The translations under genes and the position numbers were made by a program. From contig JANBPK010000807.1 in the NCBI GenBank assembly GCA_027579435.1, forward strand, positions 310,001 to 374,000: a stretch of 64,000 nt of DNA, read 5' to 3'. The notes beneath the pieces were generated by a model. That model did not search any database, had not been told where the DNA came from, and saw nothing but the letters and a program-made list of their open reading frames with translations. The stretch is from Candolleomyces eurysporus. Its lineage: Eukaryota; Basidiomycota; Agaricomycetes; Agaricales; Psathyrellaceae. Positions 10,666 through 18,464 of this stretch are shown piece after piece (within the stretch, counting starts at the first letter, position 1; the number at the start of each line of letters is the position of its first letter).

Positions 10666-13455
10666 TCAACTTTGGTCCCAGGTCCATCCCTCCGCCGCCC
10701 ACTCGGGCATGTCTGTTTCGAATGCACCCAAACTCGTCGTATACTTCCTTGCGTGCAAAAAGATGTATAGTTTCTCCGGTTTAGGGTCCGGGTGCAGAGG
10801 TAAATAACACTCTGGGCAGTAGAGGTCATCACTCTGGACGAGAGAGTTGATATCCGCGGTGGGTTCCATCGAATTGATTTTGGAGATGATTTCTTGTTCG
10901 GTGTATTGAGGAAGAGGATCAGGTTTGGTTGTAATCGCCGTGTTCGAGTTTGTGGCAGGAGGAGGGACGTCTGTTCCTGCGAGAGGCGTAGCAATTGGAT
11001 TTGGAGTTGACGTGAGTGTTCCGGTTTCGGAACCGTCACCAATACCACCAATTACCGAGGAGGAAGGTGTAGCAGAATCCTCGCCGCCACAACCCCTGGG
11101 CGCTGTTGGTGGTGTCGATTCCCCGAGGGCACTGGCATCCGGATTCTCCGTATTTTTGGGATGGCTGCCCGCATTCGCATTTTTAGAACTGTTGTTTACA
11201 AAGGTGGCTTTACCACCCCTTTTACGGCGATTTTGCAAAGGCGGCGGAGTGACAATGAGACTGTGAGGGTTCAATGCGCCTTTAACCCTGAATACGACGT
11301 CTCGCCAACGGCTCCAGTCCTCGTCTTCGTCCTACATCGACAAGACATTGTTAGTTGAATCTTTTGGAGAAAACTTTATTGATTGGAGAAAGGGAGAAAA
11401 GAACTTCATTCAGTCGAGTCTAGACTGGACGAAGAGAGTGAAGGGAGAAAGATAGATCTCGGCGACAAAAACAAGCAAAGACGAAAATAGCGAATCAGCC
11501 ATGAATAGTAACATACCTTCATGTTTCGTAACCTTGTAATAACGCCCACTGCTTCTGCCGACAGCGGAACAGGCGATCCCATTCCAATATCTTCCCCTGT
11601 CTCCCTTGGAAGGAGTTTTGGCTTAGTTTTAGGTTCAGCTTCCCCATTGTTGGAAGTTAAACTGGGGGTATCATTGGTCAAAGACTGTCCAATGGAGGGG
11701 TTCTCGGGGTGTGCTGTGGTTTTGTGATTGCCGTTAACCCCGTTACCACCAAGAGGAAGAGAAGAGGGAGAATTGTTATCTTTTGCCAGAGATTCGGGAC
11801 TTCCATGTTCTTCTGTTAGAGCTTGGAGATGGGGAGGGGCGGTTGGAGCGGAGCGCTCATCGCTGGGAGTCGTGTCGACGCCTCCTTTGCCGCGGTTTTC
11901 GCCCTGAGGAATCGCACATGAAACAAGGTACGCCCGGCAAATTGGTTACACACGAAAACCACGAGAGAAGGGAAAATATGTCCGAGCACAGAAAAAGGGA
12001 GGGAAAAAGGCACTCACCCAAATCTTCTTGTCCGAATACACAGGGTCATTAGCAATAGGGTATCCCAGGTACTGTAGATGAACCCGCAGTTGATGAGCTA
12101 GAGTAGGAAGGAAGGATGATATGAACACAAGGGGATTCGGACCGTTGAATCAAGGCGACGTACAACGTCCTGTGTGGGGTTCACATTTTACGACACTCGT
12201 ATCGGTATTGTCGTCGTATCGAATAAGGTTAAATACCGTCTTTGCTGGCTAAAATCGTAGTTAAGATTAGTTTTGAAACAGATCTGTTATTTGGGACGAA
12301 AGACGGTAGAACGAGAAAGGATGCGGTGGACTTGGACGTACCTTTCCCTCTGGATGGACGATGTTTAGTCCCATCTGTCGGTCCACGGTCAATAAAGGCT
12401 GTTCGCAGATTAGTTCGCCCCTAGAAAAACGGAGAAAGCTAAATGGTGGCCGAGAAGCCAGAAGTAGAAAGGATGCTCACTCGGGGAACTTCCCTCTGAC
12501 GCGAGCGACGTATTCCTTCTTCACGGTGCCAGCAGTGAACTCCTCGGTCAGGAGCCTGGCTCGTTGAGGAGATAGTGGGATGATCATCAAGCCAGATGTG
12601 AGGCGGTCAAGCCTATTAGCAGCTAAGGCGAATATACGTTACTAGAGAGGACGAAATACGACAGCGTTGAAGAACGTACGGTATACTTTCTTGAACCCAA
12701 AGTCAGTTACAAGAATTTCAATTAGGGTATTCTTGAAGTATCGTCCCGAGGCATGGACAGGCTGTTCAAACCAATATATCAATCAAACGTCCGCTCGGGC
12801 ATCTGAAAAATAACGGACGAACGATGCTGCCCGGCTTGTCAACGACAATAAATTCCCGTTCCACGTCGTGGTATAGAACCTTTACTGGAGTGTTCGTCAC
12901 CGGCGGTTCATGACGGTGAACGACATTCCTACGAACACGAGTTCAAATGACAATTTAGCATGTCAATAAGTGGGACAGGACGACGCACTCTATCCGATCA
13001 CCGTCCCTCAATTTCGTCGTCGGACTCGCGACCTGTCCATTGACGGTCGTCACACCCGACTCTAAAGCATAGCGCTAAATCACATCAATTAACACATTCA
13101 AAGATATCAGCGAAACCGAGTCATCAACAACGGATGAAAATCGCACATAGTACTCCATAGACCGATCCCTAAACTCCGTCGACACAACCTCTAGAAGCTC
13201 TCTCCCAATCCACCTCATCTTCGTCATCGTTGTATACGGATACCAATACGGTGCAATCTTCTTGAGTCCCGGGGGTGCAGGAACCTCTTTGGCTTTCCAA
13301 TCATCAGGGTGCTGTGGTGTCATGAGTGTAGACTTGATCAAGTTGACGAGGTTATGCTTGAACTGGTCGTAGGCTGGGAGGTTCAGGAGTGGTATGTGAG
13401 CCTTCGTAGAACGGTTTATCTGGCTAAGGAGATTCGTCGGTGAGGGTACGGTCAT
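10666..13455 (-). CDS. PUS9: tRNA/RNA pseudouridine synthase of the RluA family (Pus9/RPUSD2 type)
   Basis: Converts uridine to pseudouridine, in yeast at position 32 of tRNAs (Pus9 mitochondrial, Rib2/Pus8 cytoplasmic). The N-terminus has [31 protein letters not shown], an S4-like region ([19 protein letters not shown]), then the catalytic core. Splicing at about 12700 rebuilds [17 protein letters not shown], with the catalytic Asp in RLD. Next comes the motif [21 protein letters not shown] long low-complexity insertion of roughly 250 residues separates this from the family's C-terminal [22 protein letters not shown], ending EGWTWDQS. Yeast Rib2 carries a C-terminal deaminase domain; no such domain is present here, so Pus9/RPUSD2 is preferred. 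The start is taken at 13455 (MTVPSP); a Met ten codons upstream at 13485 is possible. It has many short introns and shares a roughly 157-bp divergent promoter with the next gene. Confidence 0.9.
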
Positions 13456-13612
13456 GAAAACGAAAAAGAATGGAGAACTGAGCAAAGTGGAATCCGATCA
13501 ATTCTTTCCTTTTCGAGGAGTCCAACTGACTTGGCCGACAATCAAATCATTCCGAGTTCTGTTCTGTTCTGTTCCTCCATCCCCACCTCCTTCAATTTCT
13601 CAACGAGCCACG

Positions 13613-14365
13613 ATGAGCCACTCACCTTCCCCAGGACCTAGCAGCAACAATAATACCAGCGCCTCGGGGACGGCCAACCACAAGCATGCCCTCACAGCAG
13701 TCGAAAAGCAGCGCTCGCAACTCGAACGTCTGCTCAAGGACCCTTCGAAGCCAGCGTACATCCCCACAGCTCCCAAAGATAAAACAATTCGACCCCCAAG
13801 GGAGATGATGAAGAACGTGCAGGGGTCAAGTGCCGGTGCTGGTAGTGGAGAGTTTCACGTCTACAAAGCCGCGAGGCGGAGAGAGTACGAGCGGTTGAAG
13901 ATGTTGGAGGAAGCGTCGGAGAAGGTGTGTATCCGCATATCTGTTAAATTTCTATTCATGAGATACTCAACGGATGGGTCACAGGAAGCAGTTACCGCAG
14001 AGTTTGAAAGGAAACGCAAGGAAGCAGAAGACGCAGCAGAGGCCAAGACAGCCAAAAACCGGGCAAAGCGACAGAAAAAGAAGGAAAAGGCGAAAGCCAA
14101 GGGCAATAATAAAGACAAGGACGCGGGTTCAGGCGACGAAGGCAAAGCTTCAGCCAACACCGACTCGAGTGCACCACTGAAGAAGCGGAGGTTAGTCAAC
14201 GGTCAAGAACTGGTGTTCAAGAGACCGGGTGAGGAGAGCGGGGACGAAGACGATGATGAGGTAGCCATTGGACCGCAAGAACCACAGCAGGCGAATATCC
14301 CAGAACCAGAACCCGCACCGGCAGCTGTCGTAGAAACCAAAATCACGATTATTGAAGACGATTAG
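13613..14365 (+). CDS. PRKRIP1-like protein (DUF1168), spliceosome-associated
   Basis: Two exons, 13613-13924 and 13985-14365, encode 230 residues. The DUF1168 signature is clear: GSGEFHVYKAARRREYERLKMLEE joined across the intron to EAVTAEFERKRKEAEDAAEAK, then a Lys/Arg-rich helix (AKRQKKKEKAKAK). Human PRKRIP1 lies as a long helix in catalytic-step-II spliceosomes and also inhibits the kinase PKR; fungi have no PKR, so the splicing role is the likely one. The N-terminal 80 residues are disordered with an ALTAVEKQRSQLERLLKDPSKPAYIP segment shared by fungal homologues. The C-terminal third is acidic and Pro/Gln-rich, ending KITIIEDD. A downstream start was chosen because the open frame upstream of 13613 runs into the promoter shared with PUS9 and lacks family similarity. 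Confidence 0.9.
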   Translation: MSHSPSPGPSSNNNTSASGTANHKHALTAVEKQRSQLERLLKDPSKPAYIPTAPKDKTIRPPREMMKNVQGSSAGAGSGEFHVYKAARRREYERLKMLEEASEKVCIRISVKFLFMRYSTDGSQEAVTAEFERKRKEAEDAAEAKTAKNRAKRQKKKEKAKAKGNNKDKDAGSGDEGKASANTDSSAPLKKRRLVNGQELVFKRPGEESGDEDDDEVAIGPQEPQQANIPEPEPAPAAVVETKITIIEDD

Positions 14366-14511
14366 GCTTCTGGATCCACTCTGTATTACATATCCCCCCT
14401 GTAATGATACACTCACCGCTGTCATCTAGTTGACTGGTCTAATTTTCTGAAGTATGGATAGGGATAGACCACTCTTCTCTAAGATACTGTCCGGAGGATT
14501 ACATAGGTCTA

Positions 14512-15495
14512 TTAACTCTTTCCAGCAACCTTTCCACTGAACACCGTCAACAACGCGAAGCACCCATACAAAAGTCCTATTGGGTATGCGACGAGCAACC
14601 GTTGCTCTGTCAATTGGAGAACCGTGACGAAGATTCCAGAGGCGGCGTATGTACACCAAAGGATAGAGACGATGGTGACAACGTAGCCGAAGGTCCGACT
14701 GCGATGCAATACTTGTTAGTGAAACTGGGATAGAAGAGCGAGAAGTTGAGGGAGAGAAAGACATACTCGAGGTTGACCATGATGTTGATGGCGCTGACAC
14801 CAACCATGGGTAGAAGGCAGTAGCCAAGTACAGAAGCGGTTCTGTAGGCGTCGATTCCGCGCGCGGACATGAGGTTGAGGAGGGTGTAGATCGACGCTGC
14901 ACCGAGGAGTCCCACTCCGTAAATATAGCCAAAGTTTGGCTTACCAGACTACAATGAAAGAAACACATAACAGATAAGTGAGAGCGCCGCTACAAGCTGA
15001 AAAGAAATACGCACGAAGAGTAACGATATCCCAAAACACACGATGAAGATGAAAGGTCCAGCCAAATCCGCATCGTCCATAATTCGACTATCGACTTGCT
15101 GGAACGGGTTGAGCACAGTCAACGTCTTTGCCTGGATATGCGAAAAGTTTATTCCCAATTCTAACGACCACAGTCAGACCATAGACATTTAAAACAGGGT
15201 TACAGCGTCAATCCGTACCTTCAAGCAAAGGCGGCTCCCCTTCAAACCCACCCGTCCCAAACGCCGTCCACCAGCCACCCTGACTCTGAATACTCCCTCC
15301 GAACGACGGCGAATCTGATATACTCCCTTGCGGAGGTGCATGTCCGTCGAGACTTGGTCGAGAGCCGGGATACATGTAAGCATTCGGGTCGACCGCGCCT
15401 CCATAGAACTGCAGAGGCTCTACGGCGGGTTGCTGGTAGTACGATGGCTGTGACGAAGACGAAGCACCGTATGCGTTGGTCGAATCTTGCCACAT
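14512..15495 (-). CDS. YIP1: Yip1-family Rab GTPase-interacting Golgi membrane protein
   Basis: Multispan protein of ER-to-Golgi vesicles that binds prenylated Ypt/Rab GTPases and works with Yif1 and Yos1. The N-terminal cytosolic region (about residues 1-100) is Ser/Gln/Tyr-rich ([18 protein letters not shown]). It leads into the diagnostic [20 protein letters not shown], formed by splicing near 15160-15225, and [10 protein letters not shown]. Five hydrophobic segments follow: [66 protein letters not shown] and [18 protein letters not shown]. It ends GKVAGKS. This layout and length fit the Yip1/YIPF5 branch. It is divergent from NSA2 with about 163 bp between start codons, and convergent with the PRKRIP1-like gene. 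Confidence 0.93.
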
Positions 15496-15658
15496 CTTGA
15501 AGGTTGGACTTGGAGGTTTGGGGACACGCGATGGGTGAAGGTAGCCTTCTGCGCAAACACGTCAATGATGGCAGTGGATCAGTTTGGTCACGTGCGAAAG
15601 ATTTCAGTCCGCGACGTTCATTGGTCGGAGCCGCAAGGCCTCTTTTCGTTCTTCCGCC

Positions 15659-16739
15659 ATGGTGAGTCGCTTTTCAGCTGGGTTATGGAAGGCTTAAAGC
15701 TGAATTTATGTCTCTGGATAATAGCCCCAGGTAAATATTGAAGTTATACAGCTCTTTGGCTGTCGATTGACGCCCGTATCGCTAGAACGAGTATATCGAG
15801 GAGCACATCAAAAGGCATGGACGAAGGCTAGACTACTACGAGAAAAAGTGCGTTGCAATCCCCTACCTAACTTTCTCTCCACTTATGACTTCTATCCTAG
15901 ACGGAAACGTGAGGCCCGCGCAGCCCACCGTTCCTCCGCCAGAGCCCAAAAACTGTTCGGCATAAAGGCTAAACTCCTACACCAGAAACGCCATGCCGAG
16001 AAGGTGCAAATGAAAAAGACGTTGAAGGCTCACGACGAGCGGAACGTCAAGAAAGCCGACTCCGGTACCGTCCCCGATGGTGCCCTACCCACATTCTTGC
16101 TCGACCGTGAGGGTCAACGGGACGCCAAAGCCATCTCGAGTGCGATCAAGCAGAAGAGGAAGGACAAGGCTGCCAAGTATGCTGTACCTCTGCCGAAGGT
16201 TAGGGGTATTGCGGAGGACGAGATGTTCAAGGTGATGAAGACGGGCAAGAGTAAGAGCAAGTCGTGGAAGAGGATGGTGACCAAGGCGACGTTTGTTGGG
16301 GAGAGCTTTACTAGGAAACCTCCCAAGTTGGAGAGGTTTGTTAGACCTATGGCTTTGAGGTTCAAGAAGGCAAATGTTACGCATCGTGAGTAANTTTTTT
16401 ATCCCGTTAGAGCCCTGACCCTTTTTATTCACCGATGGTTCGTCGTGCGATAGCTGATCTAAAAGCAACGTTCCAACTACAAATCCTCGGCGTCAAGAAG
16501 AACCCTCAATCCCCCATCTACACCCAACTGGGAGTACTGACCAAGGGTACAATTATCGAAGTCAATGTGTCCGAGCTTGGTATGGTCACCACTGGAGGCA
16601 AGGTTGTTTTCGGAAAATACGCCCAGGTCACCAATAACCCTGAAAATGACGGTTGTATCAACGCTGTACTGCGTAAGTCCTCTATACACCCCCTGATTTA
16701 TGTTGATACTCAACTAGCTTGCTTTTTCCAGTTGTTTGA
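15659..16739 (+). CDS. NSA2: Ribosome biogenesis protein Nsa2 (60S, eS8-like fold)
   Basis: Nucleolar/nuclear assembly factor of pre-60S particles needed for 27S pre-rRNA processing. The model has six coding exons: ATG 15659-15661, a 6-nt microexon 15725-15730, 15786-15847, 15901-16385, 16454-16672 and 16732-16739. Together they give 260 residues, the same length as human NSA2 and one less than yeast. Splicing yields [20 protein letters not shown], then [35 protein letters not shown], the [25 protein letters not shown] block, and the C-terminal [20 protein letters not shown], ending INAVLLV. The intron at 16386-16453 contains an N (16394) that does not affect coding. Without the microexon the protein would begin MNEYIEE and lack the conserved Pro-Gln. 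Confidence 0.96.
15725..15730 (+). other. NSA2: 6-nt microexon of NSA2 (CCCCAG)
   Basis: The six bases are flanked by AATAG on the left and GTAAAT on the right, so they can be an exon between introns 15662-15724 (63 nt, GTGAGT donor) and 15731-15785 (55 nt, CGCTAG acceptor). The exon inserts Pro-Gln directly after the initiator Met, recreating the MPQN N-terminus conserved from yeast to human. Confidence 0.85.
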
Positions 16740-17023
16740 ATGGCTTATTACCCACTATTTCATGCCATTGCTGCTTTCTTTCATGACTATATCATGATTT
16801 ATGTATTCTTAGGTCTAAACTGTTGCATTCTTTTACCACTTCACTCTTTGAAGCTTTGCATCATAATAGTAGATTGTGATTACTGGGGGAGATAGCCACC
16901 TTGAAACAAAGACAGCTTGTTTCGAGTATGTATGAAGCGGCTAAGAGGAACCATCACCTGATTGATCACCTCCAAGCAAAGTTCAATCTCTCTGATCATT
17001 GCCGTGTCTACGCCTCCTCAAAA
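16740..17023. other. Intergenic, NSA2 to RMT2
   Basis: About 280 bases. No gene is seen; it is T-rich after the NSA2 stop and presumably holds the RMT2 promoter and leader. An in-frame open stretch runs upstream of the chosen RMT2 start but shows no family similarity. Confidence 0.4.
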
Positions 17024-18464
17024 ATGGCCTCCGTCGAACCAGATAATGTCGACGTCTCGATGGACGATGAAGATGTCGCCACCCTCCTAGGCGAAAACCT
17101 CGTCAACACTATCCTCGAAGGTGGATCTCTAGACTCCGTCAAAAAGCTCCTCGAAGATGGAGCACCTGTGTGGTACCAAAACGAAGCTGAAGGCACATCT
17201 CCGTTGCATGCTGCTGCATATGTGAGGAACCCGCAGCTTGTGAAGCTGTTGATTGAAAAGGGAGCTGTTTGGAATGCTGGTAGGTGAATTTTATGTCGAT
17301 CTATCGAGAGGATGATACTGAATGAGCGCGTTGGGCTGCAGTTGACTACCTGAAATTTACTGCAGGCGACATCGCACTATCTTTCAACGATTCAGAAGCC
17401 TATGTACTCATCCGAGACGCTGGGATCCGAGCAGGTTCGTTCAATGCTTAACCTCCAATGGATGGAAGAGTTTTCAAGTTGATGACCACGTCCAGACAGA
17501 ACTTCTACTGGGCATCCTCTCGTCTCAGGATAAAAATAAGAATCAGCTCGCGTCCACTGCCTCTAGCCTCGTCCTAAAGCAAGACGATGACACGGCCGCT
17601 GGGTCGACCGACGCGTTCCTTTCGTCCAAGTTGACGTACACGACGGACAAGTACGGTCAGAAAGTTTGTATGGTGAAAGTCCGTTCCGAGGAGGGGGTAG
17701 AGGAAGACGTGGGTGTGATGATGGGATGGGAGGAAGGTATTATGACGGAAACTGTCCGCAGATTTGCAGAGGACCATCCTGGTGCTGAGAACCTCACGAT
17801 TTTGAATGTGGGGTTCGGGTTGGGTATTGTGCGTATCTTTCTCTCATTCTCTTCTTCGTCTGACAAGTGTCTTTGGTTTTACGATCGTGTAGATCGACAC
17901 CCTCTTCCAGTCCCTAGCTCACCCACCAGCCCAACATGTCATCATCGAGCCTCACCCAGACGTCCTTCAGCACATGCGCGAGACGGGGTGGTATGATAAA
18001 CCGAACGTGACGATTCTCGAAGGCAAATGGCAGGACTTTGTGGCTAACCAGAAGCTTCTGAGCTTTGGTGGATTCGATATCGTCTATACGGATACGTTCT
18101 CTGAAGACTATAGTGCGCTCAAGAGCTTTTTTGAGGAGCTTCCTGATATTCTTTCTGGACCGCATGCTAGGTTCAGCTTTTTCCATGGGCTCGGGGCGAC
18201 GAGTAAGTGTAGACATTCCATACTCTCCTCTCGTGTATGATTTCCTGACCGAAATTTTCNTTTTTTTCATATCTAGACGCGCTTTTCTACGACGTCTATA
18301 CTTACATATCCGAACTACACCTTGCAGACATTGGGCTGGATGTGGAGTGGTCGGACGTGGACGTGATAATGGACGAAGATGTAGATCGTTGGGGAAAGAG
18401 CAGAGAATATTTCACTCTGCCTACGTACAGACTACCTATAGCCAAGATGAAAGCCTTAGCATAG
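17024..18464 (+). CDS. RMT2: Protein arginine N5-methyltransferase Rmt2 (ankyrin plus SAM-methyltransferase)
   Basis: Fungal/plant enzyme that methylates the delta nitrogen of arginine; the yeast substrate is ribosomal protein Rpl12. The N-terminal part has ankyrin-like repeats (SLDSVKKLLEDGAPVWYQNE, TSPLHAAAYVRNPQLVKLL, AGDIALSFNDSEAYVLIRDAG). The catalytic part has KLTYTTDKYGQKVCMVK, the substrate-loop segment VMMGWEEGIMTETVRRF, SAM motif I ILNVGFGLGI, the acidic motif HVIIEPHPDVLQHM, and FDIVYTDTFSEDYSALKSFF. It ends FTLPTYRLPIAKMKALA and TAG at 18462-18464. Several introns are present; the one at about 18204-18275 contains an N. The start Met at 17024 was preferred over upstream in-frame codons because the sequence before it is promoter-like. 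Confidence 0.94.

Follow-up and report, generated by a model that had tools for sequence, protein, structure and literature searches.

The NSA2 gene of the agaric Candolleomyces eurysporus (Psathyrellaceae) most probably carries, at odds that we put near 0.9, a genuine and constitutively included internal coding exon of six nucleotides, CCCCAG, which would supply an essential contact of the Nsa2 protein. Sequence, splice signals, product and peptide conservation were all observed, and the need for the residue concerned, Gln3, would carry over from the yeast literature by analogy. The gene lies in a window of 64,000 nucleotides, the whole stretch of DNA analysed (forward-strand positions 310,001 to 374,000 of contig JANBPK010000807.1), and is laid out as follows in window coordinates, with the evidence used in brackets:

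15659..15661, + strand: coding exon 1 of NSA2, the lone start codon ATG (sequence; the six-exon product equals P0001)
15662..15724, + strand: intron 1, 63 nt, from GTGAGT to TAATAG, best-scoring branch motif CTGAA (A at 15703) (total signal at the 73rd percentile of 101 reference introns)
15725..15730, + strand: 6-nt microexon CCCCAG, codons 2-3, Pro-Gln (sequence, PDB matches, shuffles, P0001)
15731..15785, + strand: intron 2, 55 nt, from GTAAAT to CGCTAG, branch motif TTGAC (A at 15770) (total signal at the 48th percentile)
15786..15847, + strand: coding exon 3, beginning AACGAG (exon joining)
15848..15900, + strand: intron 3, 53 nt (exon joining, reference-intron comparison)
15901..16385, + strand: coding exon 4 (exon joining, protein match to own genome)
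16386..16453, + strand: intron 4, 68 nt, with one N inside (exon joining)
16454..16672, + strand: coding exon 5 (exon joining, protein match to own genome)
16673..16731, + strand: intron 5, 59 nt (exon joining)
16732..16739, + strand: coding exon 6, including the stop codon (exon joining)

Joined together, the six exons encode 260 amino acids plus a stop codon, with the N-terminus MPQNEYIE, and the product is identical letter for letter to the deposited C. eurysporus protein P0001 (H1R20_g5617, hypothetical protein, partial). The positions given in an earlier note on this DNA for the ATG, CCCCAG, the two introns of 63 and 55 nt and AACGAG proved exact to the base. The product holds a Ribosomal_S8e domain (PF01201, scoring 143 bits over residues 35-259; cut-off 30.2) and its residues 1-260 aligned with residues 1-260 of the NSA2 homolog 8fkr_NF (E 5.9e-122). 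Omission of CCCCAG keeps the frame and yields MNEYIE, and the N-terminus MPQN[ED]YIE was obtained only with the six bases included. As an internal exon of at most 15 nt (here 6 nt) between two introns with standard splice signals, CCCCAG would count as a microexon. A search of the fungus's own genome with the NSA2 protein matched this locus only, revealing no second allele or paralogue; further PF01201 matches on another contig (C465) were rejected as NSA2 copies, the NSA2 protein having given no match there. No Rfam match was found in 14500-17500.

Several features of the surroundings were also recorded. A DUF1168 (PF06658) gene at 13454-14362 (+ strand) lies approximately 1.3 kb upstream of NSA2, whilst models from Ganoderma and Antrodiella continue from NSA2 into DUF1168 and both domains are found in Rhizopogon and Butyriboletus entries (P0121, P0122, P0123, P0124), which suggests an old neighbourhood together with faulty fusion of models. 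A divergent open frame without a Pfam match (15211-15495, - strand), which we take to resemble the Yip1 family, starts approximately 160 bp from the NSA2 start codon and may share a promoter with NSA2. The next gene downstream (16901-17287, + strand) encodes ankyrin repeats and, with the frames that follow it, may resemble an Rmt2-type arginine methyltransferase. The Candolleomyces efflorescens model P0002 starts upstream (MAVNQFGHVQKISVR...) and reads in frame into MPQNEYIE; positions 15568-15658 of the window hold a matching upstream frame, MAVDQFGHVRKISVR, but one that does not share the reading frame of the NSA2 ATG.

Splice signals around the six-base exon

Signals were scored against reference introns from 264 kb of the contig (the window plus L008-L027), which had to be flanked on each side by 210 nt of open frame and to pass a signal-score threshold; 101 passed, as against 6 candidates in a reversed-sequence control at the same threshold, a control that is lenient towards the real sequence on which the splice weights were trained, and later introns of NSA2 are possibly among the 101. 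This stricter model with its reversed control replaced a first splice-site model, dropped as too noisy (433 of 435 groups kept), and was preferred to a looser version that asked for 150 nt of open frame, retained 263 introns (81 in its control) and put intron 1 at the 80th and intron 2 at the 75th percentile. The earlier note had judged a two-codon exon between such introns to lie at the edge of spliceosomal recognition. Our comparison does not support this, since both introns are ordinary in length (63 and 55 nt, close to the median of 61 nt, n = 101) and in total signal (73rd and 48th percentiles), and splicing of the microexon looks mechanistically ordinary.

The intron 1 donor (ATG/GTGAGT, slashes marking splice boundaries) stood at the 99th percentile, its acceptor (AATAGC, TAG at 15724) was weak at the 17th, and the intron 2 donor (CAG/GTAAAT) reached the 45th; its +5 base is A, but the exon before it ends in a complete CAG. 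Six bases past TAG 15724, the CAG at 15730 scored at the 62nd percentile as an acceptor, and an alternative 69-nt intron ending there had a total signal at the 91st percentile, compared with the 73rd for intron 1, and would leave no microexon. These scores favour a reading in which CCCCAG is intronic, removed either within one 124-nt intron (15662-15785) or in two steps with CCCCAG/GTAAAT as a zero-length recursive site, the product being MNEYIE. Skipping preserves the frame, and a 124-nt skip intron is possible by length, since of 87 candidates with a single intron 6 were 100-130 nt long (in the reversed control, 2 of 6). No AG lies between the best branch motif and TAG 15724, and a scanning choice of the 3' splice site would pick this TAG.

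The chance occurrence of the six-base pattern argues against CCCCAG being intronic. AG/CCNCAR/GT has a single occurrence in the 124 nt separating ATG from AACGAG and, with that one counted, two on both strands of the whole window together (0.0019 per 124 nt). Dinucleotide shuffles of the 124 nt placed it in frame, with neither flanking intron shorter than 40 nt, in 4 of 20,000 trials, and the stricter YAG/CCNCAR/GTR in 0 of 20,000. Together with the evidence on the protein given below, this leads us to regard an intronic CCCCAG as very improbable. That a different upstream exon might supply MPQ, an alternative raised by the earlier note, is hardly credible: searches for contiguous forms on the + strand returned no ATGCCNCAR in 12000-15790 and no second CCNCARGT in 14500-15790. 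A scan of the 264 kb for other tiny exons returned 0 in the real and 0 in the reversed sequence, a count that does not inform on how frequent such exons are, since the scan requires 150 nt of upstream open frame and would have missed even the NSA2 exon.

Under the preferred reading of CCCCAG as a coding exon, the actual splicing, its order and its constitutive nature are predictions. Each flanking intron would be recognised across the intron as a unit, so that the exon itself would need no definition. The first AG (15724) past the intron 1 branch point would be used as acceptor, CAG/GTAAAT would then serve as the intron 2 donor, and the exon would contribute Pro2-Gln3 to give MPQNEYIE.

Conservation and function of Pro2-Gln3

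The peptide restored by the microexon is widely conserved. Seven PDB sequences were matched, and the four aligning from residue 1, which we take to be those of human, S. pombe, S. cerevisiae and Chaetomium, all begin MPQN[ED]YIE; with the identity of P0001 and the six-exon product, this bears out the earlier claim that the six bases are needed for the conserved N-terminus. Three homologue searches, with 120 matches each listed out of 4450, 4488 and 4313, gave 143 distinct proteins. Among the matches listed, the block beginning at residue 4 was absent in 15 of the 143, whilst in the 128 homologues keeping it Pro2-Gln3 stood directly before the block in 105 and a Gln did so in 114 (counted from class lists).

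In yeast Nsa2, Gln3 is directed towards the GTP pocket of Nog1, and Q3N causes lethality, being the single change behind the lethal Q3N,N4Q pair, although Q3N alone gives very small colonies now and then (PMC7730687). Q3A/N4A and the N-terminal deletions delta-4 and delta-6 are also lethal (PMC7730687). Counting against our reading, Q3 mutant proteins are still found on pre-60S particles, whose composition is near-normal; in their full-length form the Q3 mutants have no dominant-negative effect (PMC7730687).

The microexon comprises the codons of Pro2-Gln3, the residue tested in yeast included. Since Gln3 faces the Nog1 GTP pocket on the pre-60S particle in yeast, inclusion of the exon should be needed for a working Nsa2. 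Skipping in frame would delete Gln3, and the faulty mRNA would carry no stop-codon mark. An intronic CCCCAG would likewise delete this residue, whose change to Asn is lethal in yeast (PMC7730687), and is further opposed by the presence of Pro2-Gln3 in most block-keeping homologues listed and in all four PDB sequences. One of the smallest coding exons appears to be placed on a residue whose shortening by one CH2 is lethal in yeast (PMC7730687). Faithful splicing of a 6-nt exon would then be required for 60S ribosome assembly in C. eurysporus.

NSA2 gene models in relatives

The 143 homologues were grouped by genus name into Agaricomycetes (n = 50), other fungi (n = 46) and entries with no name (n = 47, kept apart), a division of named genera for which we relied on what we take to be their placement. 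Fisher tests used 48 of the 50 Agaricomycete models, the other two lacking the residue-4 block, and starts were called irregular unless they were plain MPQ, opened with PQ in a partial model, or had M followed by a variant dipeptide. Among the matches listed, PQ was lost before residue 4 in 11 of the 48 Agaricomycete models compared with 2 of 46 from other fungi (p 0.015) and starts were irregular in 21 of 48 compared with 3 of 46 (p 3.4e-5), tests that describe models rather than biology, since the groups were annotated by different pipelines and relatives are not independent. The expectation in the earlier note that automated gene finders will miss the exon is thus partly upheld for relatives, but it fails for C. 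eurysporus, where the public model P0001 contains the microexon and annotation did not miss it.

Seven of the 11 PQ-less Agaricomycete models have M directly before residue 4:

P0006
P0008
P0017 (Schizophyllum commune)
P0041 (Trametes cinnabarina)
P0048 (Lactarius)
P0051 (Lactarius)
P0080 (Russula)

One Naganishia model has the same arrangement, and these eight would fit an intronic CCCCAG; our reading of the PQ-less Agaricomycete models is that they are annotation errors. In the protein models of relatives, misplaced N-termini often coincide with the exon edges predicted for NSA2. Four of the 48 models keep PQ without a preceding M, two of which begin MVS (Phlebiopsis P0010 and Cytidiella P0016) and look as though the ATG had been read on into a GTRAGT donor. 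Taken together, the irregularities fit an ATG/PQ/N split in many Agaricomycetes, and the exon itself may, to judge from these protein models, be conserved in relatives. Plain MPQ starts (23 of the 50 Agaricomycete models among the matches listed) fit either a microexon that was found or the absence of the introns in those species. The no-name entry P0065 starts MPQVSG, possibly from reading through CAG/GTNAGY, and hints weakly at a later gain of intron 1, with intron 2 the older of the two.

No-name entries bear on a further alternative, in which the microexon is included in most mRNAs and partly skipped under some condition, giving a non-functional MNEYIE and less 60S assembly. The exon is divisible by three and two acceptors lie six bases apart, the downstream one stronger, and a microexon switch has been reported for Trichoderma Xlr2 (PMC11121469). 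Against partial skipping, none of the 34 no-name entries keeping the residue-4 block (13 of the 47 are without it) has M directly before that residue, although the entries are 90% clusters, which would conceal minor forms. Several comprise a complete frame of approximately 260 amino acids on a contig 0.9-1 kb long and probably represent spliced transcripts of unknown fungi; these entries mildly favour inclusion as the normal form. On balance, we consider partial skipping improbable.

We give similarly low odds to a broader proposal, that the Pro2-Gln3 microexon is old in mushroom-forming fungi and has been kept since skipping yields an Nsa2 without Gln3, splicing thereby setting the supply of 60S-competent Nsa2; if true, ribosome production would be tied to splicing capacity. 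In viral and genome contig collections searched for a fungal NSA2 locus, 50 and 37 pattern matches were returned, none encoding a relative. The gene lends itself to testing annotation pipelines and splicing by intron definition.

Comparison with known microexon systems

Among the papers listed by our literature searches on microexons and tiny exons, we saw no earlier report of an NSA2 microexon. The closest structural parallel comes from P450 gene models of Phanerochaete chrysosporium, also an Agaricomycete, in which the shortest exon is 6 bp (2 amino acids) and small introns (45-55 bp) are frequent (PMC1184071). They differ from NSA2 in being mostly assembled gene models and in not belonging to a ribosome-assembly gene, and the accessible text ties no essential residue to the tiny exon (PMC1184071). 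In plants, 1-nt exons are described in APC11 and VPS55 and ultra-small exons are often misannotated, their omission altering or shortening N-termini, as would omission of the equally ultra-small NSA2 exon; these occur in other genes and were shown by RNA-seq and RT-PCR (PMC8831610).

The microexon switch in Xlr2 of Trichoderma virens is regulated by glucose and was tested, and its authors describe functional microexons as previously undescribed in filamentous fungi (PMC11121469). It is a fungal microexon deciding whether a key part of a protein is made (PMC11121469), as the NSA2 exon would be; regulation of the latter would be hypothetical. The yeast Nsa2 study shares with the present case the protein and its residues 2-3 and, in its accessible part, concerns protein function rather than exon structure (PMC7730687). 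Overall, tiny exons are already known from fungi and plants, and what NSA2 adds is the placing of a residue of unusual importance on so small an exon.
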